From a bacterium (lineage in GTDB: Bacteria > Pseudomonadota > Gammaproteobacteria > Nevskiales > OUC007), in NCBI GenBank assembly GCA_018222345.1, contig JAAFAL010000015.1:1-36157 (forward strand): a DNA stretch of 36,157 nt, in the 5' to 3' direction. The position numbers and the translations under genes were made by a program. Below, piece after piece: positions 1,393 to 25,372 of the stretch (positions within the stretch are counted from its first letter, which is position 1; each line of letters starts with the position of its first letter). Under the pieces are notes generated by a model. That model was not told where the DNA came from. It searched no databases and worked only from the letters and a program-made list of their open reading frames with translations.

Positions 1393-3230
<1,838 letters not shown>

Positions 3231-3279
3231 TGGGGCGAAAAGCGCGGTATTGTACGCGCCCCCTATGCAATATGTTGCA
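3231..3279. promoter_or_regulatory. Divergent intergenic region typA / DUF4197 with a small palindrome
   Basis: This 49-bp gap must hold the 5' signals of at least one of the two divergent genes. It contains the dyad TGCAA-TATG-TTGCA at 3266-3279, immediately before the DUF4197 start. Whether this is an operator or chance cannot be told from one sequence. No clear -35/-10 pair is visible. Confidence 0.3.
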
Positions 3280-4029
3280 ATGCGTCAAAATACTCGATCA
3301 TTAGCCCTCACATTGGTCTGCTGCGCCGGCTTGGCCGCAAGCCTCAATACAAGCGTGGCCCACGCCGGTATCGGCGACTTCTTCAAGAGCATCTTCCAGC
3401 AACCTGCCACCGAAAAGCTGCTCGCCGAGGGCGATGCCGTGGCCGGCATCCGCGAGGCCCTGGCCAAAGGCACCGAAACTGCTGTGAACACGCTGGGCCG
3501 CACCGACGGTTTTTGGGGCAACGATGCTGCACGCATCCCGTTGCCAGCCCGTGTGCAGCAAGTCGGCGACGGTATGCGCAAGATCGGCCTCGGCGCGACC
3601 GTGGATGAGTTCCACCTGACCCTGAACCGCGCCGCCGAGCAGGCCGTGCCAGAGGTGGCCAGCATCCTTGGCAACGCCGCGCGGAACATCACCGTGGCCG
3701 ATGCCGTGGGCATCATCAAAGGCCCAGACGATGCCGCTACGCGATACTTCGAAACCACTGCCGGCGAGACACTATTCGCCCGCATCCGCCCCAAGGTCGA
3801 AGAAGCCACGGCCAAGGTGGGCGTTACGCAGCAGTACAAATCGCTGGTCAACCAAGCCGGGCCGTTCATGGCGCTGGCCGGTGGCGAGTTGCCTAGCGAC
3901 CTCGACAGCTATGTAACTGAGCAGGCCATGGATGCGCTGTTCGTGCAGATCGCCAAGCAGGAAAAGCTGATCCGCGACAACCCGGCCGCGCGCACCAGCG
4001 AGATCCTGCGCGAAGTATTCGGCAAGTAA
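3280..4029 (+). CDS. Exported DUF4197 family protein
   Basis: A 249-residue protein beginning MRQNTRSLALTLVCC, with a signal peptide and a likely signal-peptidase I site after AHA (residue 29). The mature part, GIGDFFKSIF... to TSEILREVFGK, matches the all-helical DUF4197 family: repeated helices with KIGLGATVDEFHLTLNRAAE, an internal GPDDAATRYF segment and the C-terminal NPAARTSEILREVF. Function is unknown. I chose the ATG at 3280 because it opens directly on the signal peptide; upstream in-frame starts at 3217 and 3265 would add residues not typical of the family, and the first would overlap typA. ubiA follows after 13 bp on the same strand, so the two are probably cotranscribed, without an obvious functional link. 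Confidence 0.85.
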   Translation: MRQNTRSLALTLVCCAGLAASLNTSVAHAGIGDFFKSIFQQPATEKLLAEGDAVAGIREALAKGTETAVNTLGRTDGFWGNDAARIPLPARVQQVGDGMRKIGLGATVDEFHLTLNRAAEQAVPEVASILGNAARNITVADAVGIIKGPDDAATRYFETTAGETLFARIRPKVEEATAKVGVTQQYKSLVNQAGPFMALAGGELPSDLDSYVTEQAMDALFVQIAKQEKLIRDNPAARTSEILREVFGK

Positions 4030-4042
4030 TTCCCGCGAGCCC

Positions 4043-4909
4043 ATGACCGCGGTGCAAACCCGGCTGCGCGACTATGCGTTGCTGATGCGGCTGGACAAGC
4101 CCATCGGCATTTGGCTGTTGCTATGGCCGACGCTGTGGGGCTTGTGGATTGCTGCCGGCGGCTTACCGGACCGCGAAGTGCTGCTGATCTTTGCCGCTGG
4201 CGTCGTACTGATGCGTTCGGCCGGCTGCGTGATCAACGACTTTGCCGACCACGACATCGACCCACATGTAGAACGCACGCAGCAACGGCCGATTGCTGCC
4301 GGCCGCGTGCGGCGCAGCGAGGCTGTGGTGTTGTTCGTACTGTTGGCATTGGCCGCCTTTGCACTGGTGCTGCAAACCAATCGGCTGACCATCGTGCTAT
4401 CGGTGCCCGCCGTGCTGCTGGCTGCCAGCTACCCGTTTGCCAAGCGCTTTCACCATATGCCGCAGGCGCACCTGGGCGCTGCGTTTGCCTGGGCCATCCC
4501 CATGGGCTTTGCCGCGCAAACCGGCACCGTGCCGCCGTTGGCGTTTGGCCTGTTCACCATCGCATTGCTGTGGACGGTTGCCTACGACACCTTTTACGCC
4601 ATGGCCGACCGCACCGAAGACCTGGCCATCGGCGTCAAGTCATCCGCCATCATGTTCGGCCGCAACGACCGGGTGATTACAGCGCTGCTACAGATGCTGG
4701 TGCTGGCCGGGCTGGCGCTGGTGGGCCGGCATTTGGGCTACGGCCCGTGGTTTGCCGCCGGTTTGCTGGCTGCTTTTGCCTTGGCTGGGTGGCAGCAATG
4801 GTTAATCCGCAACCGCGAGCCCGAGGCGTGCTTCAAGGCGTTTTTGAACAATCACGCGTTTGGCGCGGTGATTTTCGCAGGCGTGTTGCTGGAGACGTGG
4901 CCTGGCTAG
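4043..4909 (+). CDS. ubiA: 4-hydroxybenzoate polyprenyltransferase UbiA
   Basis: An integral membrane prenyltransferase that attaches the polyprenyl chain to 4-hydroxybenzoate, the second step of ubiquinone synthesis. The 288 residues carry the first aspartate-rich motif NDFADHDID at residues 65-73 and the second, YDTFYAMADRTED, about residues 180-192, with around eight or nine membrane segments; the N-terminal LMRLDKPIGIWLLLWPTLW is characteristic. No ubiC (chorismate lyase) is adjacent; the XanB2-like chorismatase at 12637 could supply 4-hydroxybenzoate, as XanB2 does in Xanthomonas. The TAG stop at 4907-4909 coincides with the TA boundary and first base of the second mobile-element copy; in the reconstructed empty site the codon is also TAG, so the insert did not change the protein. 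Confidence 0.96.
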   Translation: MTAVQTRLRDYALLMRLDKPIGIWLLLWPTLWGLWIAAGGLPDREVLLIFAAGVVLMRSAGCVINDFADHDIDPHVERTQQRPIAAGRVRRSEAVVLFVLLALAAFALVLQTNRLTIVLSVPAVLLAASYPFAKRFHHMPQAHLGAAFAWAIPMGFAAQTGTVPPLAFGLFTIALLWTVAYDTFYAMADRTEDLAIGVKSSAIMFGRNDRVITALLQMLVLAGLALVGRHLGYGPWFAAGLLAAFALAGWQQWLIRNREPEACFKAFLNNHAFGAVIFAGVLLETWPG

Positions 4910-5153
4910 CCCGGATGATTCACGTGATGCGCAGCAGCTGGCGCAGGATCGGTTGTTCTGGGCGCCGCTCTGGACTGAGAAACATAGCCGTAGCTATGTT
5001 TGGAAGGAAGAGCAAGCACAGGGCGGCCGAGACCAGCCAGATGTTGTGCAAGCGATGCTCAGGTACAAACGGGTTTTTCAGAGAACCTTGAATTGTTTTT
5101 TACAATCATATTGTTACATGCGCTAACAGCGGTCACGTGAAACATTCGGGCTA
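4907..5153. mobile_element. MITE-like element, copy B (inverted relative to copy A)
   Basis: A 247-bp element with TA at both boundaries (4907-4908 and 5152-5153). Its imperfect terminal repeats read inwards GCCCGGATGATTCACGTGA on the left and GCCCGAATGTTTCACGTGA on the right. Reverse-complemented, it aligns with copy A at 374-621. The internal hairpin at 4980-5001 is retained with one compensated base pair relative to copy A. An AT-rich patch around 5090-5117 differs from copy A, so the two are clearly diverged and old. It fills almost the whole gap between the convergent genes ubiA and the ketoreductase; the reconstructed empty site would leave only about 6 bp between their stop codons. It might also act as a bidirectional terminator. 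Confidence 0.8.
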
Positions 5154-5160
5154 GGAATGC

Positions 5161-5895
5161 CTAGGCCATCCCGCCATTCACACCAATCACCTGCCCGCAC
5201 ACATAACTGGCAGCGTCGGAGCACAAAAAGCCCACCACCTGCGCCACCTCGTCGGGTTGGCCCATGCGCCGCGCCGGCACCATGTGGCGGATGTGCTCGT
5301 CGGGGAACAGGCCCTCGGTCATCTTGCCGGCAATGATGCCGGGCGCCACGACATTGGCGGTGACGCCGCGCGAGGCCAGTTCCATGCCCAACGACTTGAC
5401 CGCGCCGTGCAGGCCGGCCTTGGCGGCTGCGTAGTTGGCTTGCCCGCGATTGCCGGTTTGCCCGGCAACGGACGACACCGCCACCACGCGGCCCCAGCGC
5501 GTACGCATCATGGGCATGAGCAGCGGTTGCACGGTGTTGTAGAAACCACCTAGCGAAACATCAATGACGCGCTGCCATTGCTCGGGCTTCATGCCCACCA
5601 GCGGGGCGTCGTCGTGAATGCCGGCATTGCTGACGACGGCTTGGATGGGCCCATCGGCCAAGGCTTGCTCCAGCGCCTGGCGTGCCGCCGCGCCGTCGGT
5701 CACGTCGAACTGCAGCGTTGTGCAGGCGCCGCCGGAAGCATTGATGGATTCGGCCAAGGCTTCAGCTTTTGCCGCATTGCCGTTGTAGTGCGCCAGCACA
5801 GCGAAACCATCCGCCGCCAATTGCCGGGCGATGGCTTGGCCGAGGTCGCCGCTTGCACCGCTGACCAGGGCGCGTTTTGGCTTGCCGGCGCTCAT
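5161..5895 (-). CDS. 3-ketoacyl-ACP reductase (FabG/ApeQ-like) of the pigment cluster
   Basis: A classical short-chain dehydrogenase/reductase of 244 residues. The NADPH-binding loop is a GASGDLG variant around residues 13-19, NAG is at 90-92, and the catalytic Ser142, Tyr155 and Lys159 lie in SSVAGQTGNRGQANYAAAK. The C-terminal PDEVAQVVGFLCSDAASYV and GGMA are typical of FabG. It would reduce the beta-keto group on the carrier-protein-bound polyene at each elongation cycle. Its ATG overlaps the upstream dehydratase stop as ATGA, so it is the last gene of a translationally coupled series. A housekeeping role in fatty-acid synthesis cannot be excluded from sequence alone, but the context points to pigment synthesis. 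Confidence 0.92.
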   Translation of the reverse strand: MSAGKPKRALVSGASGDLGQAIARQLAADGFAVLAHYNGNAAKAEALAESINASGGACTTLQFDVTDGAAARQALEQALADGPIQAVVSNAGIHDDAPLVGMKPEQWQRVIDVSLGGFYNTVQPLLMPMMRTRWGRVVAVSSVAGQTGNRGQANYAAAKAGLHGAVKSLGMELASRGVTANVVAPGIIAGKMTEGLFPDEHIRHMVPARRMGQPDEVAQVVGFLCSDAASYVCGQVIGVNGGMA

Positions 5896-19510: not shown

Positions 19511-20500
19511 ATGACCAAACCCCTCTTACCGCCCTGGCGTAAAACCGCCAACGGCGATGACCGCCGCATCGGTGTCGAACTGGAATTTTCCGGCTTGGGC
19601 ATCGAAGCTATCTCCCGGCTGCTCAAGGAACACTTGGGCGGCAGTATCGAGCCGGTGTCGCAGTATGAATTCGAACTGCAGGACACCGAATTCGGCACGT
19701 TTCGGGTTGAGCTGGATTTCGATTACCTCATCCGCGCCGGCCGTGAGCAGCGCGATGTCGATGACAGCTTTGATCTCGACCGCATCCCCGACGAGTTACT
19801 GGGCCTGATCGCGCGGCGGGTCGTGCCCTTTGAGGTCGTTACGCCACCCATCCCCATGCCGGCGCTGGGCAAGTTGCAGGACGTGATTGCTGGTTTGCGC
19901 GAACTCGGCGCACTGGGCACGCGGCGCTCGCCCATCTACGCCTTTGGCCTGCACATGAACCCGGAGTTGCCGGACTCGAAGGCCGAAACCCTGCTGGCGT
20001 ATCTACAGGCCTTCGTGTGCCTGTTCCCGTGGTTGCTCAAACGCAGCGAGGTGGATTGGTCGCGCCGCATCGCGCCGTATATCGACAAGTTCGGCAGCGA
20101 CTACGTGCGCCACATTGTTGCTGCCGACTACGCGCCGGACCTCAGCACACTGATCGACGACTATTTGAAGTTCAACCCAACGCGCAACCGCGCGCTGGAC
20201 ATGCTGCCAGCATTTGCCGATGTGGACGAAAAACGCGTACGCGACGTTGTTGATAGCAACTTGATCAAGCCGCGGCCGGCGCTGCATTACCGCCTGCCGA
20301 ATTGCCTGATTGATGACCAAGACTGGAACCTGGACACGCCCTGGCAGCATTGGCTGCAAGTGGAACACCTGGCCGCCAACGATGATGCCCGCCGCGACAT
20401 GATGGCAGCGTTTCTCGACCACCTCGACGACCCGATCAGCAAACTGCTGGACGACTGGACCAAGCGCACCGCGACCTGGCTGGTTGATCTCGGCGAATGA
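19511..20500 (+). CDS. Amidoligase family protein (glutamine synthetase/GCS-like fold)
   Basis: A 329-residue cytosolic protein opening with RRIGVELEFSGLGIEAI, the GxExEF segment that marks the Amidoligase_2 family, an ATP-dependent carboxylate-amine ligase group with a glutamine synthetase-like fold. Further family features are RVELDFDY and VVPFEVVTPPIPM (metal/ATP ligands expected), YAFGLHMNPELPD, and a helical C-terminal half ending PISKLLDDWTKRTATWLVDLGE. Its substrate is unknown; amidoligase/GATase pairs have been predicted to make or trim small gamma-glutamyl-type amides or peptide tags. The stop codon overlaps the start of the next gene as ATGA, so the two products are probably made in step. 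No Shine-Dalgarno of note. Confidence 0.87.
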   Translation: MTKPLLPPWRKTANGDDRRIGVELEFSGLGIEAISRLLKEHLGGSIEPVSQYEFELQDTEFGTFRVELDFDYLIRAGREQRDVDDSFDLDRIPDELLGLIARRVVPFEVVTPPIPMPALGKLQDVIAGLRELGALGTRRSPIYAFGLHMNPELPDSKAETLLAYLQAFVCLFPWLLKRSEVDWSRRIAPYIDKFGSDYVRHIVAADYAPDLSTLIDDYLKFNPTRNRALDMLPAFADVDEKRVRDVVDSNLIKPRPALHYRLPNCLIDDQDWNLDTPWQHWLQVEHLAANDDARRDMMAAFLDHLDDPISKLLDDWTKRTATWLVDLGE

Positions 20501-21189
20501 AGCGCCCGCTGATCGGAATCACCGGCCCCGACAAGCGGCTGGCTTGGGGTTGGTGGTTCGGTGCGCTATCAGTGTGGCTGGCGGGCGGGCGGCCCGTGCG
20601 AATTACGCCCAAGCGCCAGCATTGGTTGCAGCGTTTTGACGAGTTGCGCGGCCTGATCATCGGCGGCGGTGATGATATCGACCCCAACCTCTACACCGAT
20701 GTCACCGACCTGGACTCCGACGTGCAAGGCGAATACGACGCCGCCCGCGATGCGCTGGAGTCCGACGTCATCCGCCGCGGGCTTGCCGCTGGCCTGCCGA
20801 TGTTGGGCATTTGCCGCGGCGCGCAGCTCATCAACATCGTCAAGGGCGGCAACTTGATTGGCGACCTCAAGACCGTGCGCAAACGCACCTCGAACCGCTG
20901 GTTCGTATTGCCCCGCAAAACCCTGCATGTGGAGCCTGGCTCACAACTGTCGCAGACACTCGGCGGCGTCCGCGCCAAAATCAACAGCCTGCATCATCAG
21001 GCGGTTGACCAACTGGGCGATGGTCTGCGCCGCGTCGGCCATGACCTGGACGACATCACCCAAGCAGTGGAATCCAGCGACGACAGCTTTTTGCTGGGTG
21101 TGCAATGGCACCCCGAATACATGCCACAAGTTCGGCGCATGCGGCGCATCTTCCGGGCGCTGGTTGACCGGGCCAGGGCGCGGGCATAA
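20497..21189 (+). CDS. Class I glutamine amidotransferase-like hydrolase (peptidase C26)
   Basis: A 230-residue protein of the gamma-glutamyl hydrolase/PuuD-like group. The nucleophile is Cys106 in GICRGAQLINI, and His205 and Glu207 lie in GVQWHPEY, so the catalytic triad is complete. IIGGGDDIDPNLY precedes it in the usual place. PuuD itself cleaves gamma-glutamyl-GABA, but here the gene is coupled (ATGA) to an amidoligase rather than to putrescine genes. The more likely role is to supply ammonia to, or hydrolyse the product of, that ligase; which of the two cannot be decided from sequence. An intrinsic terminator follows the stop codon. Confidence 0.9.
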   Translation: MKRPLIGITGPDKRLAWGWWFGALSVWLAGGRPVRITPKRQHWLQRFDELRGLIIGGGDDIDPNLYTDVTDLDSDVQGEYDAARDALESDVIRRGLAAGLPMLGICRGAQLINIVKGGNLIGDLKTVRKRTSNRWFVLPRKTLHVEPGSQLSQTLGGVRAKINSLHHQAVDQLGDGLRRVGHDLDDITQAVESSDDSFLLGVQWHPEYMPQVRRMRRIFRALVDRARARA

Positions 21190-22288: not shown

Positions 22289-25200
22289 ATGCGCACGTTA
22301 GGCGTTCAGGCCCTTGCGGCACTCTTCATTGCAACCCTGCTGACAGCCTGCGGCGGTTCGTCGTCGAGCGCGGACCCCACGACGCAGACACCGGTTAGTG
22401 TGCCGGACACTCCAGGCACAGATACGCCGCCACCCGTTGCGCGCACTGTAATCATTCAGCCCGGCCCTGACGCCACGCTTGACGCGCTCAACGCGTTTGT
22501 TGACGCTCGGCCTGGCGACACCATCGAGTTCGACTGCGGCTTTTTCGATATCGAGTCCACATTGCTGCTGAGTAATGTAGAGAACATCCTTATCAAAGGT
22601 TGCGGCGTGGACGAGACCGTCGTGTCATTCCGCAACAGCGACGGGGTCGAGGGCTTTTTGTTCGACAACGTGCGCGGAGTAATTATTGAAGACCTGACAA
22701 TGGCCGACTCCGACGGCAACGGCTTCGAACTGCGCAGTGTCGAGCACGGCACCTTGCGACGGGTGCGCGCGTTTTGGTCGTCGAACGGCGGTCGCGAAAG
22801 CGACGACCCGATTACAGCCGACAACTACCAAGACGGCCGCCTGGATGTACCGTGCACGGACCCAGCCTTCCAAAATCCCGACGTTCCCGAAAATGCCGGC
22901 GGCGATACAACGTCGCCTGACTACACAGTGAGTCAGCAGGCTGGCCGCTACGGTATTTACCCCGTGAAATCCCAGCACATCTTGGTTGACGGGGCCGAAT
23001 CTATTGGGGCTTCGGACGCAGGCATTTACGTCGGGCAGACAACCAACGCGATCATTCGTAACAGCCGCGCGGCGTACAACGTGTTCGGCTTCGAGATCGA
23101 GAACGTACAAGGTGGCGAGTACAACAACAACTTGGCCGAGTGCAACACTGGCGGTTTTCTGGTGTACGACTTGGACAACCTAACCCAGTACGGAAGCCGC
23201 ACGCGCGTTTACAACAACGTCTCACGCAACAACAACACCTACAACTTCACCGAAGGCGGCATCGTCTCTCAGATTCCTCCTGGCACCGGCATGTTGACGT
23301 TGAGCTACGACCGAATCGATGTGTTCGACAACATCTTCGAAAACAACAACACAGGCGGTTTCATTCACGTCAGCTACGAGTTGTTGCCAGAAGGTGACCG
23401 GCCCAGCGAGCGCAAGATTGATTGGTACTCGGAAGGGGTGCGTATTTTCCGCAACACCTTCACCAACAACGGCAACATGCTCCCCGTTGCAACAACAACA
23501 GACCTTGCGGAAGAGAATGTCGCGAAAGTTCTACCTGCACTGATCGGTTTGAAAACTCAAGCCGGGTGCGCAGCCGACCCAACGGCCTGCCCAGATGGTG
23601 ATGGCTTCCGAGGTGCACATATTGTTTGGGATGGCCTGCTGCCCGAGTTGGATGCTGACTGCCCCTACCCGGTGGATCAAAACGGTAACCCTGTGCCGGC
23701 GGATGAAAATGGCAAGCCACAACACACGGAGTCTGACCCGAACCCTGACTGCCACTACAACGCTTACAAGTTCGACACCACAGACCCACAAAACCCCGTG
23801 CGGATTGCGCCGCTGTGGTTCGCCTCGTGTATCGATAGCGACAACACCTTTTCCGACGACAGCCTGCTCTATACCAACTTCAAAGGAACAAAAGGCGCGG
23901 ATGCCGCCATCGCATTGTCAAGCGGTGGCCTGCCTACGCCGCAGCAACTGGCAGAACTCCAGGATTTTCCAGCCGACCTGGATTGGACTCCGCACCAGTG
24001 TGAAGACCAGTACGGTGAAAACTTGGCGCTGCTGCCGCCAGTCGTGATCCCGCCATTTGTCCCCAGTGCGAACATCGACCCAGCACCCTCGCTGGAAGAA
24101 GTGACCCGCCTTTGTACTGCAGAGGTGGCTGATGGCGAGGTGAACTTTGGTGCGGCAACGGTAGATTGCCCGCTACTGGAGCAGTACAACCTGTTCGCCG
24201 ATGCCGACGACCCGACCAGCACGCCGAACAGCGGCGGCTACCCATTCGTGCTGAACACCAAGCTGTTTTCCGACTACTCGGTTAAATATCGCGTGGCCTA
24301 CCTGCCTCCCAATACACAATTGGTTTATCGGGAAGGCGCCGGCACTAGCCCTAATGCCACCATTGTTTATCCGGTGGGCACGATTATCGCCAAAACCTTC
24401 TCGTTCCACGACAACGGTAGCGAGGAGGCCATCGAGACGCGGCTGATCATCAAACGGCGCAATTCGATGGGTGAGCCGCGCTGGGTCGGCCTACCGTACG
24501 TCTGGAAAACAGCTACCGACGGAAGTCGTTTTGCCGAACTGCAACCCGCTGGTGCATCAGTGGAAGTGAGTTGGGACTACGTGGATGCCGATACGGGAAC
24601 ACGCCACACCGGCAGCACCGACGCCTACAGCGTGCCGAACGCCAACCAGTGCAAAAGCTGCCATACCAACGAAGATGTCGATGCTGGCACGGCGCCAATC
24701 GGGCCGAAGGTGCGCAACCTCAACCGGCCATATGAATCGGAGTCACCGGCGGCAACTGGCCAAAGCCAGCACGAAATTGCTGACCGCAATCAGATTGAAT
24801 ATCTATGCAGCACCGGCCGTATGGTGGGATGCCCGTCTGATTTGGGTGTTGATGCCGCAACGCAAATTGCTGCCAACCTGCCGCGGTCGCCCAAGTTCAA
24901 CGTGCCAGGCGATTCCGGCTTTACCGCCAACTCGGACGAAGATATCGAAGCACGCACGCGCGCATGGTTGGAAGTGAATTGTCAGCACTGCCATAACAGC
25001 CGCGGTTTCGCCGCGAACACCGGGTTTTATCTCGACGTCTTCCGCCAAGTTGATGCCAGCTATGGCATCTGCAAAGGGCCCACTGCAACTGGTGCCGATG
25101 GCTCAGGCGGCCGTGAGGTGGACATCCACCCTGGTTCAGCCAATTTGTCGATTCTGGAATTCCGTATCAGCCCCGACGCCGTCTCGCCATCAGCCAAGAT

Positions 25201-25321
25201 GCCGCCAATCGCGCGCAGTGTGGTTGATGAAGAAGGCCATGCACTCGTCGCTCAATGGATCAACGATGTCGTGGTTCCGGACGAGTCCCGCTACCCCGGC
25301 TCGACGAACTGCACGCAATAG
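22289..25321 (+). CDS. Lipoprotein fusing a parallel beta-helix domain to a diheme cytochrome c-type domain
   Basis: A 1010-residue exported lipoprotein with lipobox LTAC and lipidated Cys21, then a Ser/Thr/Pro-rich linker. Residues about 50-400 are a right-handed beta-helix rich in Asn and Asp, with repeating turns such as NNTYNF and FENNNTGGFIHVSYE. A middle insert with several paired Cys follows. The C-terminal part (about 610-1010) has FVLNTKLFSDYSVKYRVAYLPP and two haem-binding motifs, CKSCH at residue 788 and CQHCH at 898, with AKMPPIARS as a possible Met ligand. In other bacteria these two parts usually occur as two neighbouring genes (as I recall TIGR03805 and TIGR03806, the latter including SO2930-type diheme cytochromes), function unknown; here they are one chain. 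Start ATG 22289 opens on the signal peptide with a GAGG upstream. A strong terminator follows. Confidence 0.85.
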   Translation: MRTLGVQALAALFIATLLTACGGSSSSADPTTQTPVSVPDTPGTDTPPPVARTVIIQPGPDATLDALNAFVDARPGDTIEFDCGFFDIESTLLLSNVENILIKGCGVDETVVSFRNSDGVEGFLFDNVRGVIIEDLTMADSDGNGFELRSVEHGTLRRVRAFWSSNGGRESDDPITADNYQDGRLDVPCTDPAFQNPDVPENAGGDTTSPDYTVSQQAGRYGIYPVKSQHILVDGAESIGASDAGIYVGQTTNAIIRNSRAAYNVFGFEIENVQGGEYNNNLAECNTGGFLVYDLDNLTQYGSRTRVYNNVSRNNNTYNFTEGGIVSQIPPGTGMLTLSYDRIDVFDNIFENNNTGGFIHVSYELLPEGDRPSERKIDWYSEGVRIFRNTFTNNGNMLPVATTTDLAEENVAKVLPALIGLKTQAGCAADPTACPDGDGFRGAHIVWDGLLPELDADCPYPVDQNGNPVPADENGKPQHTESDPNPDCHYNAYKFDTTDPQNPVRIAPLWFASCIDSDNTFSDDSLLYTNFKGTKGADAAIALSSGGLPTPQQLAELQDFPADLDWTPHQCEDQYGENLALLPPVVIPPFVPSANIDPAPSLEEVTRLCTAEVADGEVNFGAATVDCPLLEQYNLFADADDPTSTPNSGGYPFVLNTKLFSDYSVKYRVAYLPPNTQLVYREGAGTSPNATIVYPVGTIIAKTFSFHDNGSEEAIETRLIIKRRNSMGEPRWVGLPYVWKTATDGSRFAELQPAGASVEVSWDYVDADTGTRHTGSTDAYSVPNANQCKSCHTNEDVDAGTAPIGPKVRNLNRPYESESPAATGQSQHEIADRNQIEYLCSTGRMVGCPSDLGVDAATQIAANLPRSPKFNVPGDSGFTANSDEDIEARTRAWLEVNCQHCHNSRGFAANTGFYLDVFRQVDASYGICKGPTATGADGSGGREVDIHPGSANLSILEFRISPDAVSPSAKMPPIARSVVDEEGHALVAQWINDVVVPDESRYPGSTNCTQ

Positions 25322-25339: not shown

Positions 25340-25372
25340 GAAAAAGGCCACCCAGCTGGGTGGCCTTTTTTT
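25340..25372. terminator. Bidirectional intrinsic terminator
   Basis: A perfect 20-bp palindrome (25346-25365, arms GGCCACCCAG and CTGGGTGGCC) is flanked by an A-run on the left and seven T residues on the right. It can terminate both the beta-helix/cytochrome gene on the plus strand and mnmE on the minus strand, which converge here. Confidence 0.93.

Follow-up and report, generated by a model that had tools for sequence, protein, structure and literature searches.

The NCBIfam families TIGR03805, a beta-helix, and TIGR03806, the SO2930-type diheme cytochromes, are encoded as adjacent genes in pairs of the HNE_0200/SO2930 type. In Shewanella oneidensis, SO_2931 is counted among the five outer-membrane cytochromes in three reports (PMC12175506, PMC4837345, PMC5357785) and was included in the delta-omc-all strain, the available part of that study giving no individual function for SO_2931 (PMC5829830). 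The literature searched on HNE_0200, TIGR03806 and a P460 link yielded no functional paper. Here we describe a gene in a stretch of 36,157 nucleotides from a Nevskiales genome (GCA_018222345.1, contig JAAFAL010000015.1; the whole stretch is called the window below), which encodes both families in one chain, and whose first haem domain resembles cytochrome P460. In our estimate the chances are about even that its product is an outer-membrane lipoprotein of the SO_2931 type, in which a P460-like reactive haem and a relay haem are combined with a glycan-type helix.

The frame at 22289-25321 is uninterrupted, with zero internal stops, and an in-frame TTG lies 42 bases 5' of its ATG. The product matches TIGR03805 with 225.7 bits in two stretches (curated cut-off 141.5) and TIGR03806 with 255.8 bits (E 5e-76, profile positions 2-313 of 314), which bears out the first-pass annotation, where a fused lipoprotein of 1010 residues with CXXCH motifs at 788 and 898 had been read from this DNA. 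Its parts are:

22289-25321, plus strand: whole gene for the 1010-residue beta-helix/diheme cytochrome lipoprotein (ATG at 22289, stop codon at 25319-25321)
22289-22351, plus strand: lipoprotein signal peptide (residues 1-20) with lipobox LTAC, lipid-modified Cys21, then Gly-Gly (LTAC-GG)
22442-23503, plus strand: right-handed beta-helix (residues 52-405; TIGR03805, PF13229, AlphaFold2 model and Foldseek)
22949-23170, plus strand: conserved patch on successive rungs (Y221, Y224, D243, Y247, Q250, E269, E271, N272)
23504-24166, plus strand: region joining the two halves (residues 406-626; alignment A1)
24206-24667, plus strand: haem-1 domain (residues 640-793; hhalign and enrichment with a P460 hidden Markov model, HMM)
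24392-24394, plus strand: Lys702, aligned with the haem-cross-linking lysine of P460 (Lys in 118 of 119 TIGR03806 proteins)
24650-24664, plus strand: CXXCH of haem 1 (residues 788-792; invariant in 119 proteins)
24896-25288, plus strand: haem-2 domain of the class I cytochrome c type (residues 870-1000; Cytochrom_C match in 48 of 85 members)
24980-24994, plus strand: CXXCH of haem 2 (residues 898-902; invariant in 119 proteins)
25199-25201, plus strand: Met971, likely sixth ligand of haem 2 (M-P invariant in 119 of 119 proteins)

The haem-1 domain carries the motif F-P-x-G-T-x-x-x-K ... E-T-R-L ... W ... W ... CXXCH, which resembles that of cytochrome P460. The domain was compared with 23 P460-family proteins gathered with PF16694; hhalign gave 91.2% on alignment A8 and 78.6% when the whole domain was used together with a larger set. 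The value was 94%, with the alignment reaching CXXCH, once the extra strands between W739 and CXXCH were omitted, and 93-95% over six border choices with the 20-42-residue insertion left out, a trimming which was post hoc and guided by the strand list of the structure model. Controls gave 1.4% for reversed P460, at most 0.8% for shuffles, 6.9% for the haem-2 domain and 0.1% for the beta-helix. An HMM built from the P460 set scored at least 5 bits on 68 of the 119 haem-1 domains (cut before CXXCH), as opposed to 16 of 2245 unrelated decoy frames, the 68 not being independent matches because the 119 domains are related to each other. PF16694 itself was found at E <= 0.01 in nine of 85 TIGR03806 members, the best at 1.2e-4. 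Judging from these sequence comparisons, the haem-1 domain is probably a true, if remote, member of the P460 superfamily, and the haems would not both be the plain electron-transfer centres that the first-pass annotation had seen in them.

The likeness to P460 and cytochrome c'-beta (6amg, 2je3, 6hih) lies in the collinear F-P-x-G-T-x-x-x-K ... W ... CXXCH, in a lysine at the cross-link position and in the lack of a conserved His or Met as sixth ligand; unlike these proteins, the haem-1 domain has the insertion of 20 to 42 residues (extra strands) before CXXCH, has a second haem domain attached, stays under the Pfam gathering score and is missed by Foldseek. The lysine in question, K702, is the last residue of F-P-x-G-T-x-x-x-K and pairs in the alignment with K106 of 6amg. 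This residue is the haem-cross-linking lysine, known as Lys106 in NsP460, Lys70 in NeP460 and Lys78 in McP460, the position being occupied by Met or Phe in c'-beta (PMC11928373, Table 2). Four glucose/sorbosone dehydrogenase (GSDH) fusions within the 119 TIGR03806 proteins also have a lysine equivalent to K702, and in the P460 superfamily set collected here only 11 of 23 proteins carry lysine at the cross-link position. Whether a lysine-haem cross-link is actually formed is, from the sequence, doubtful rather than probable. Besides the His of CXXCH, no His or Met is conserved in the haem-1 domain among the 119 proteins, making a canonical sixth ligand unlikely. E716 and R718, each found in 118 of 119 proteins, lie on the following strand, the one that bears the distal carboxylate in P460, with a register uncertain by one to two residues.

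Several observations weigh against this interpretation. The window protein misses the curated cut-off of TIGR03806 (313.3), and it is homologous to this family, as its sequence indicates, as a divergent member. PF16694 gives no match to it, and none of the ten TIGR03806 members scanned singly reached the PF16694 gathering score of 27, the best having 22.2. A Foldseek search with the model of the cytochrome half returned no P460 structure in the top 50 and nothing below E = 0.1. Finally, among the recurring neighbours of the loci there is no conserved operon partner which would point to a substrate.

The AlphaFold2 model used in that search (residues 601-1010) is confident, with a predicted local distance difference test score (pLDDT) of 92.3 and a predicted template modelling score (pTM) of 0.91; it is beta-rich, with the CXXCH helix following the strands, and was the form in which the P460 beta-sheet fold was sought. 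A sequence search of the PDB found no convincing solved relative of the cytochrome half. The features of SO2930-type diheme cytochromes, namely two CXXCH motifs (788, 898) and a Met for haem 2 (M971), are all present in the window protein, and a Pfam scan found no match in it to PF03150, the MauG/CCP diheme peroxidase family. Cytochrome c assembly genes are present in the same genome, so haem attachment is possible.

The N-terminal half also matches PF13229 (29.2 bits, cut-off 25.9), and AlphaFold2 again gave a confident model, here for residues 52-1010 (pLDDT 90.2, pTM 0.90). In Foldseek, the nearest folds of the helix are the polysaccharide lyase RbmB (E 5e-7), the epimerase AlgE4 and PL6 lyases, with a further hit to an alginate epimerase/lyase (root mean square deviation 3.1, template modelling score 0.48 on target). 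The polysaccharide-acting proteins named by the first-pass annotation are thus indeed the closest in shape, although the likeness speaks of architecture only, given the low identity and the shared repeat fold. Compared with RbmB, AlgE4 and PL6, the helix shows 9-15% identity, has a different conserved patch and carries a cytochrome. Conserved catalytic His or Lys residues are found in AlgE and PL6; among 42 diverse helices of the present family no His or Lys is invariant, and the cutting activity that had been proposed as well is not supported. One helix rung, YGIYPV, might be compared with an epimerase active-site motif, a likeness that carries no weight in the argument here. The patch residues are invariant or nearly so in these 42 helices. 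With the rung register taken from the AlphaFold2 strand table and the facing from strand alternation, the patch probably points to the solvent, and it may plausibly be a binding or metal site distinct from the known lyase and epimerase machinery. The helix also matches NosD just under the cut-off (E = 8.8e-5, 22.5 bits, cut-off 23.6), and the helices of three other loci (L079, L080, L158) score above it.

That the two halves form one chain is not an artefact of assembly, a possibility that had been raised for this contig: the same single-frame architecture is found in 26 of 40 related genomes, with the best copies at 42-66% identity, and also in independent isolates and metagenome-assembled genomes (MAGs), for example of Stagnimonas, Hydrocarboniphaga, Solimonas, Alcanivorax and Marinobacter. 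In a sample of 299 genomes across the phylum, TIGR03805 and TIGR03806 were adjacent or fused in all 27 genomes that hold both families over or near the cut-offs (21 split, six fused). In split pairs the helix gene precedes the cytochrome gene in 43 of 44 cases, mostly with an overlap or a gap of less than 20 bases, and the lone exception (L161) is probably an over-extended frame. The families are therefore close partners, as had been supposed, and the statement that they usually occur as neighbouring genes holds across the phylum; it fails for the order of the window, where fusion is the norm. A scan of GTDB, restricted to the best 80 matches and thereby biased towards fused forms, found the long fused form in Stagnimonas, Hydrocarboniphaga, Solimonas, Alcanivorax, Marinobacter, Zhongshania, Limnobacter and further groups. 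Among the carriers of shorter fused chains were Shewanella, Halieaceae, Planctomycetota and Bdellovibrionota; Caulobacterales, Microbulbifer, Bacteroidota and Myxococcota were among those with split pairs. In a quick tree built from the cytochrome half, the state switches between fused and split about six times, at least two of these switches being forced by well-supported branches; the window protein groups with fused proteins only, in a supported clade of 38 rows. The joining region (residues 406-626) includes stretches which are extra in the long sub-clade of about 1000 residues in comparison with fused forms of 880-910 residues (alignment A1). With the NCBIfam split pairs the window protein shares both domains in identical order; theirs are adjacent genes, while here there is one chain with a TIGR03806 score under the curated cut-off. 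In one MAG, two fused beta-helix/diheme genes stand in tandem (L126, 5890-12090, plus strand; the same as L118).

Fusion is not a novelty of this locus either, since Shewanella and several further families also carry fused chains; it is a known architecture, present here in a divergent long sub-clade. The Shewanella loci (L152-L154, L157, L158, L163, L164, L179) encode a fused TIGR03805-TIGR03806 chain of 880-905 residues, a lipoprotein with two CXXCH motifs, followed by a separate TIGR03806 gene. Judging from the order of the genes in S. xiamenensis (L158), the fused chain is most likely SO_2931 and the separate gene SO_2930. The window protein has the fused chain, the two CXXCH motifs and the lipoprotein character in common with the SO_2931 type; it is about 33-35% identical to the Shewanella chains, more than 100 residues longer and placed in another, all-fused clade, and its locus, unlike theirs, is without an extra separate TIGR03806 gene. 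A lipobox is present in 50 of 60 fused relatives, the residue after Cys being mostly Gly or Ser. In the window protein the residue at position +2 is other than Asp (C21-G22), as in outer-membrane lipoproteins, and the protein is probably one of these, in agreement with what had been proposed from the sequence.

Each half also occurs with other redox or carbohydrate partners, as two kinds of protein indicate. A second TIGR03806 module of the same genome (G000:C147:12939-13826; L003, 1489-3669, minus strand; L121) is fused to a pyrroloquinoline quinone (PQQ) glucose/sorbosone dehydrogenase in a lipoprotein of 727 residues, whose GSDH domain (PF07995) scores 151.6 bits; such fusions were found in G000:C147, G286 and G226. 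The diheme module with the K702 equivalent and the Met ligand is shared with the window protein; the GSDH fusion differs in its N-terminal partner, GSDH instead of a beta-helix, and belongs to a separate clade. In G226, SO2930-type diheme modules also lie inside proteins of about 2000 residues (L083, L084), one of which (L083, read as L051) additionally has GSDH and several F5/8 type C domains of the carbohydrate-binding type. Conversely, in two genomes of family f8 (L079, 1042-3806, minus strand; L080, 36-2787, plus strand) a TIGR03805 helix has its own C-terminal monohaem cytochrome c and adjoins a gene for a MauG/CCP-type diheme protein, an independent helix-cytochrome association; the helix keeps company with a c-type haem even where the cytochrome is a different one. 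In four related gammaproteobacterial MAGs with a shared neighbourhood (L169, L174, L185, L202), a TIGR03805 helix has no cytochrome within about 6 kb.

Flanked by a Nudix gene on one side and the convergent mnmE on the other, the gene is a solitary one in the origin region, which also holds yidC, dnaA, dnaN, recF and gyrB. Between it and mnmE one further element was read directly in the sequence:

25346-25372, no strand assigned: stem-loop GGCCACCC-AGCT-GGGTGGCC followed by T7

This strong stem-loop is likely a terminator as far as its sequence tells; it is absent from the output of a simple terminator scan, the probable reason being that the A-run ahead of the T-run pairs with it. Elsewhere in the window (19511-21189, plus strand) an Amidoligase_2 gene is directly followed by a gene for a peptidase C26/class I glutamine amidotransferase, forming a two-gene unit. 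Around the loci collected from other genomes, the recurring neighbours are an AraC-type regulator, alpha/beta hydrolases, TonB receptors, acyl-CoA synthetases and short-chain dehydrogenases/reductases. Operon context was dropped as a guide to the substrate, the neighbours being diverse and low in number and their counts lacking a random-locus control. A large lipoprotein with weak similarity to peptidase M19 lies directly upstream of the fused gene at five loci (L128, L129, L140 and L143, about 3200-5870, plus strand; L120, 9966-12296, minus strand); it occurs only in Marinobacter/Alcanivorax and beside one Nevskiales paralogue.

How, then, might such a protein work? It is unlikely, in our opinion, that it is purely a surface electron-exchange cytochrome, with the helix acting only as scaffold or in adhesion and the two haems shuttling electrons to extracellular acceptors, as is assumed for SO_2931. 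The recognition of SO_2931 as an outer-membrane cytochrome in PMC12175506, PMC4837345 and PMC5357785 speaks for such a role, as does the Shewanella gene order of fused chain and separate TIGR03806 gene; however, there are two haems only, the recurring neighbours include no Mtr-type multihaem partner with porin, most carriers found are not classic metal reducers, and simple conduction needs neither a conserved helix patch nor a conserved P460-like lysine. In addition, one study puts the loss of cathodic current at 95.7% with all outer-membrane cytochromes deleted versus 88.2% with mtrC and omcA alone, which would leave little for SO_2931 (PMC5829830). We also give low probability to an extracellular dehydrogenase system, in which the helix would be, or bind, a sugar-polymer enzyme and the diheme half would be an electron acceptor reserved for it, on the model of the PQQ dehydrogenase fusions. 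Lyase, epimerase and hydrolase reactions set no electrons free, the helix is without an invariant His or Lys, and NCBIfam and Pfam scans found no PQQ, flavin or metal cofactor domain in the helix half, even though the diheme module is fused to GSDH in the three cases above and the fold resembles that of lyases, epimerases and glycoside hydrolases. Least probable, and indeed very unlikely, is a redox-maturation or metal-handling pair, modelled on MauG-type partners and NosD-like helices, in which the cytochrome half would oxidatively modify or protect the helix and the acidic patch would bind metal: of the observations in its favour, the NosD scores are what any asparagine-ladder beta-helix is expected to give, as with PF13229, the MauG/CCP-type neighbour of two genomes is limited to one family, and a ZrgA zinc-uptake gene, which adjoins the Limnobacter locus, is a neighbour at two loci only.

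If the protein is a lipoprotein of the outer membrane that combines a P460-like haem with a relay haem and a glycan-type helix, the division of labour could be the following. The N-terminal helix would bind, and possibly process, a glycan-like polymer through the acidic, aromatic and amide side chains of its conserved patch, and so present the substrate or hold the protein on the polymer. Haem 1, with open or lysine-linked coordination in its P460-like domain, would be the reactive site, acting perhaps on a small molecule, perhaps on the bound substrate. Haem 2, His/Met-ligated in its class I domain, would act as a relay, handing electrons to a soluble or surface partner or receiving them from it. 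Of this picture, the single chain, the resemblance to the two families, their close pairing, the conserved ligands and lysine and the remote likeness to P460 are observed; the localisation, the openness of haem 1, the path of the electrons, the class of substrate and all of the chemistry are inferred. Oxidative attack on polysaccharide and surface electron exchange, the two roles suggested by the first-pass annotation, are both possible functions of such an arrangement.

The P460 link of the TIGR03806 family, which we did not find in the literature on TIGR03806, HNE_0200 and P460, is the part worth testing. In its widest form, put forward tentatively, the proposal is that TIGR03806, including SO_2930 and SO_2931, may be an unrecognised branch of the P460 superfamily, in which a lysine-cross-linked catalytic haem is wired to a class I haem and mounted at the cell surface, its carrier being either a PQQ sugar dehydrogenase or a beta-helix of the glycan type. 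Hydroxylamine is the substrate of the known members with a lysine-haem link, and nitric oxide is a ligand of their c'-beta relatives; if the proposal is true, there would be P460 chemistry outside nitrogen metabolism, and a new setting for the lysine-haem link, none such having been found reported. Should haem 1 be a P460-type centre, the family would shift from passive electron carriers to candidate enzymes. In Shewanella, where the pair has been taken for yet another electron conduit of the outer membrane, a single spectrum could answer the question, and the organism is genetically tractable.

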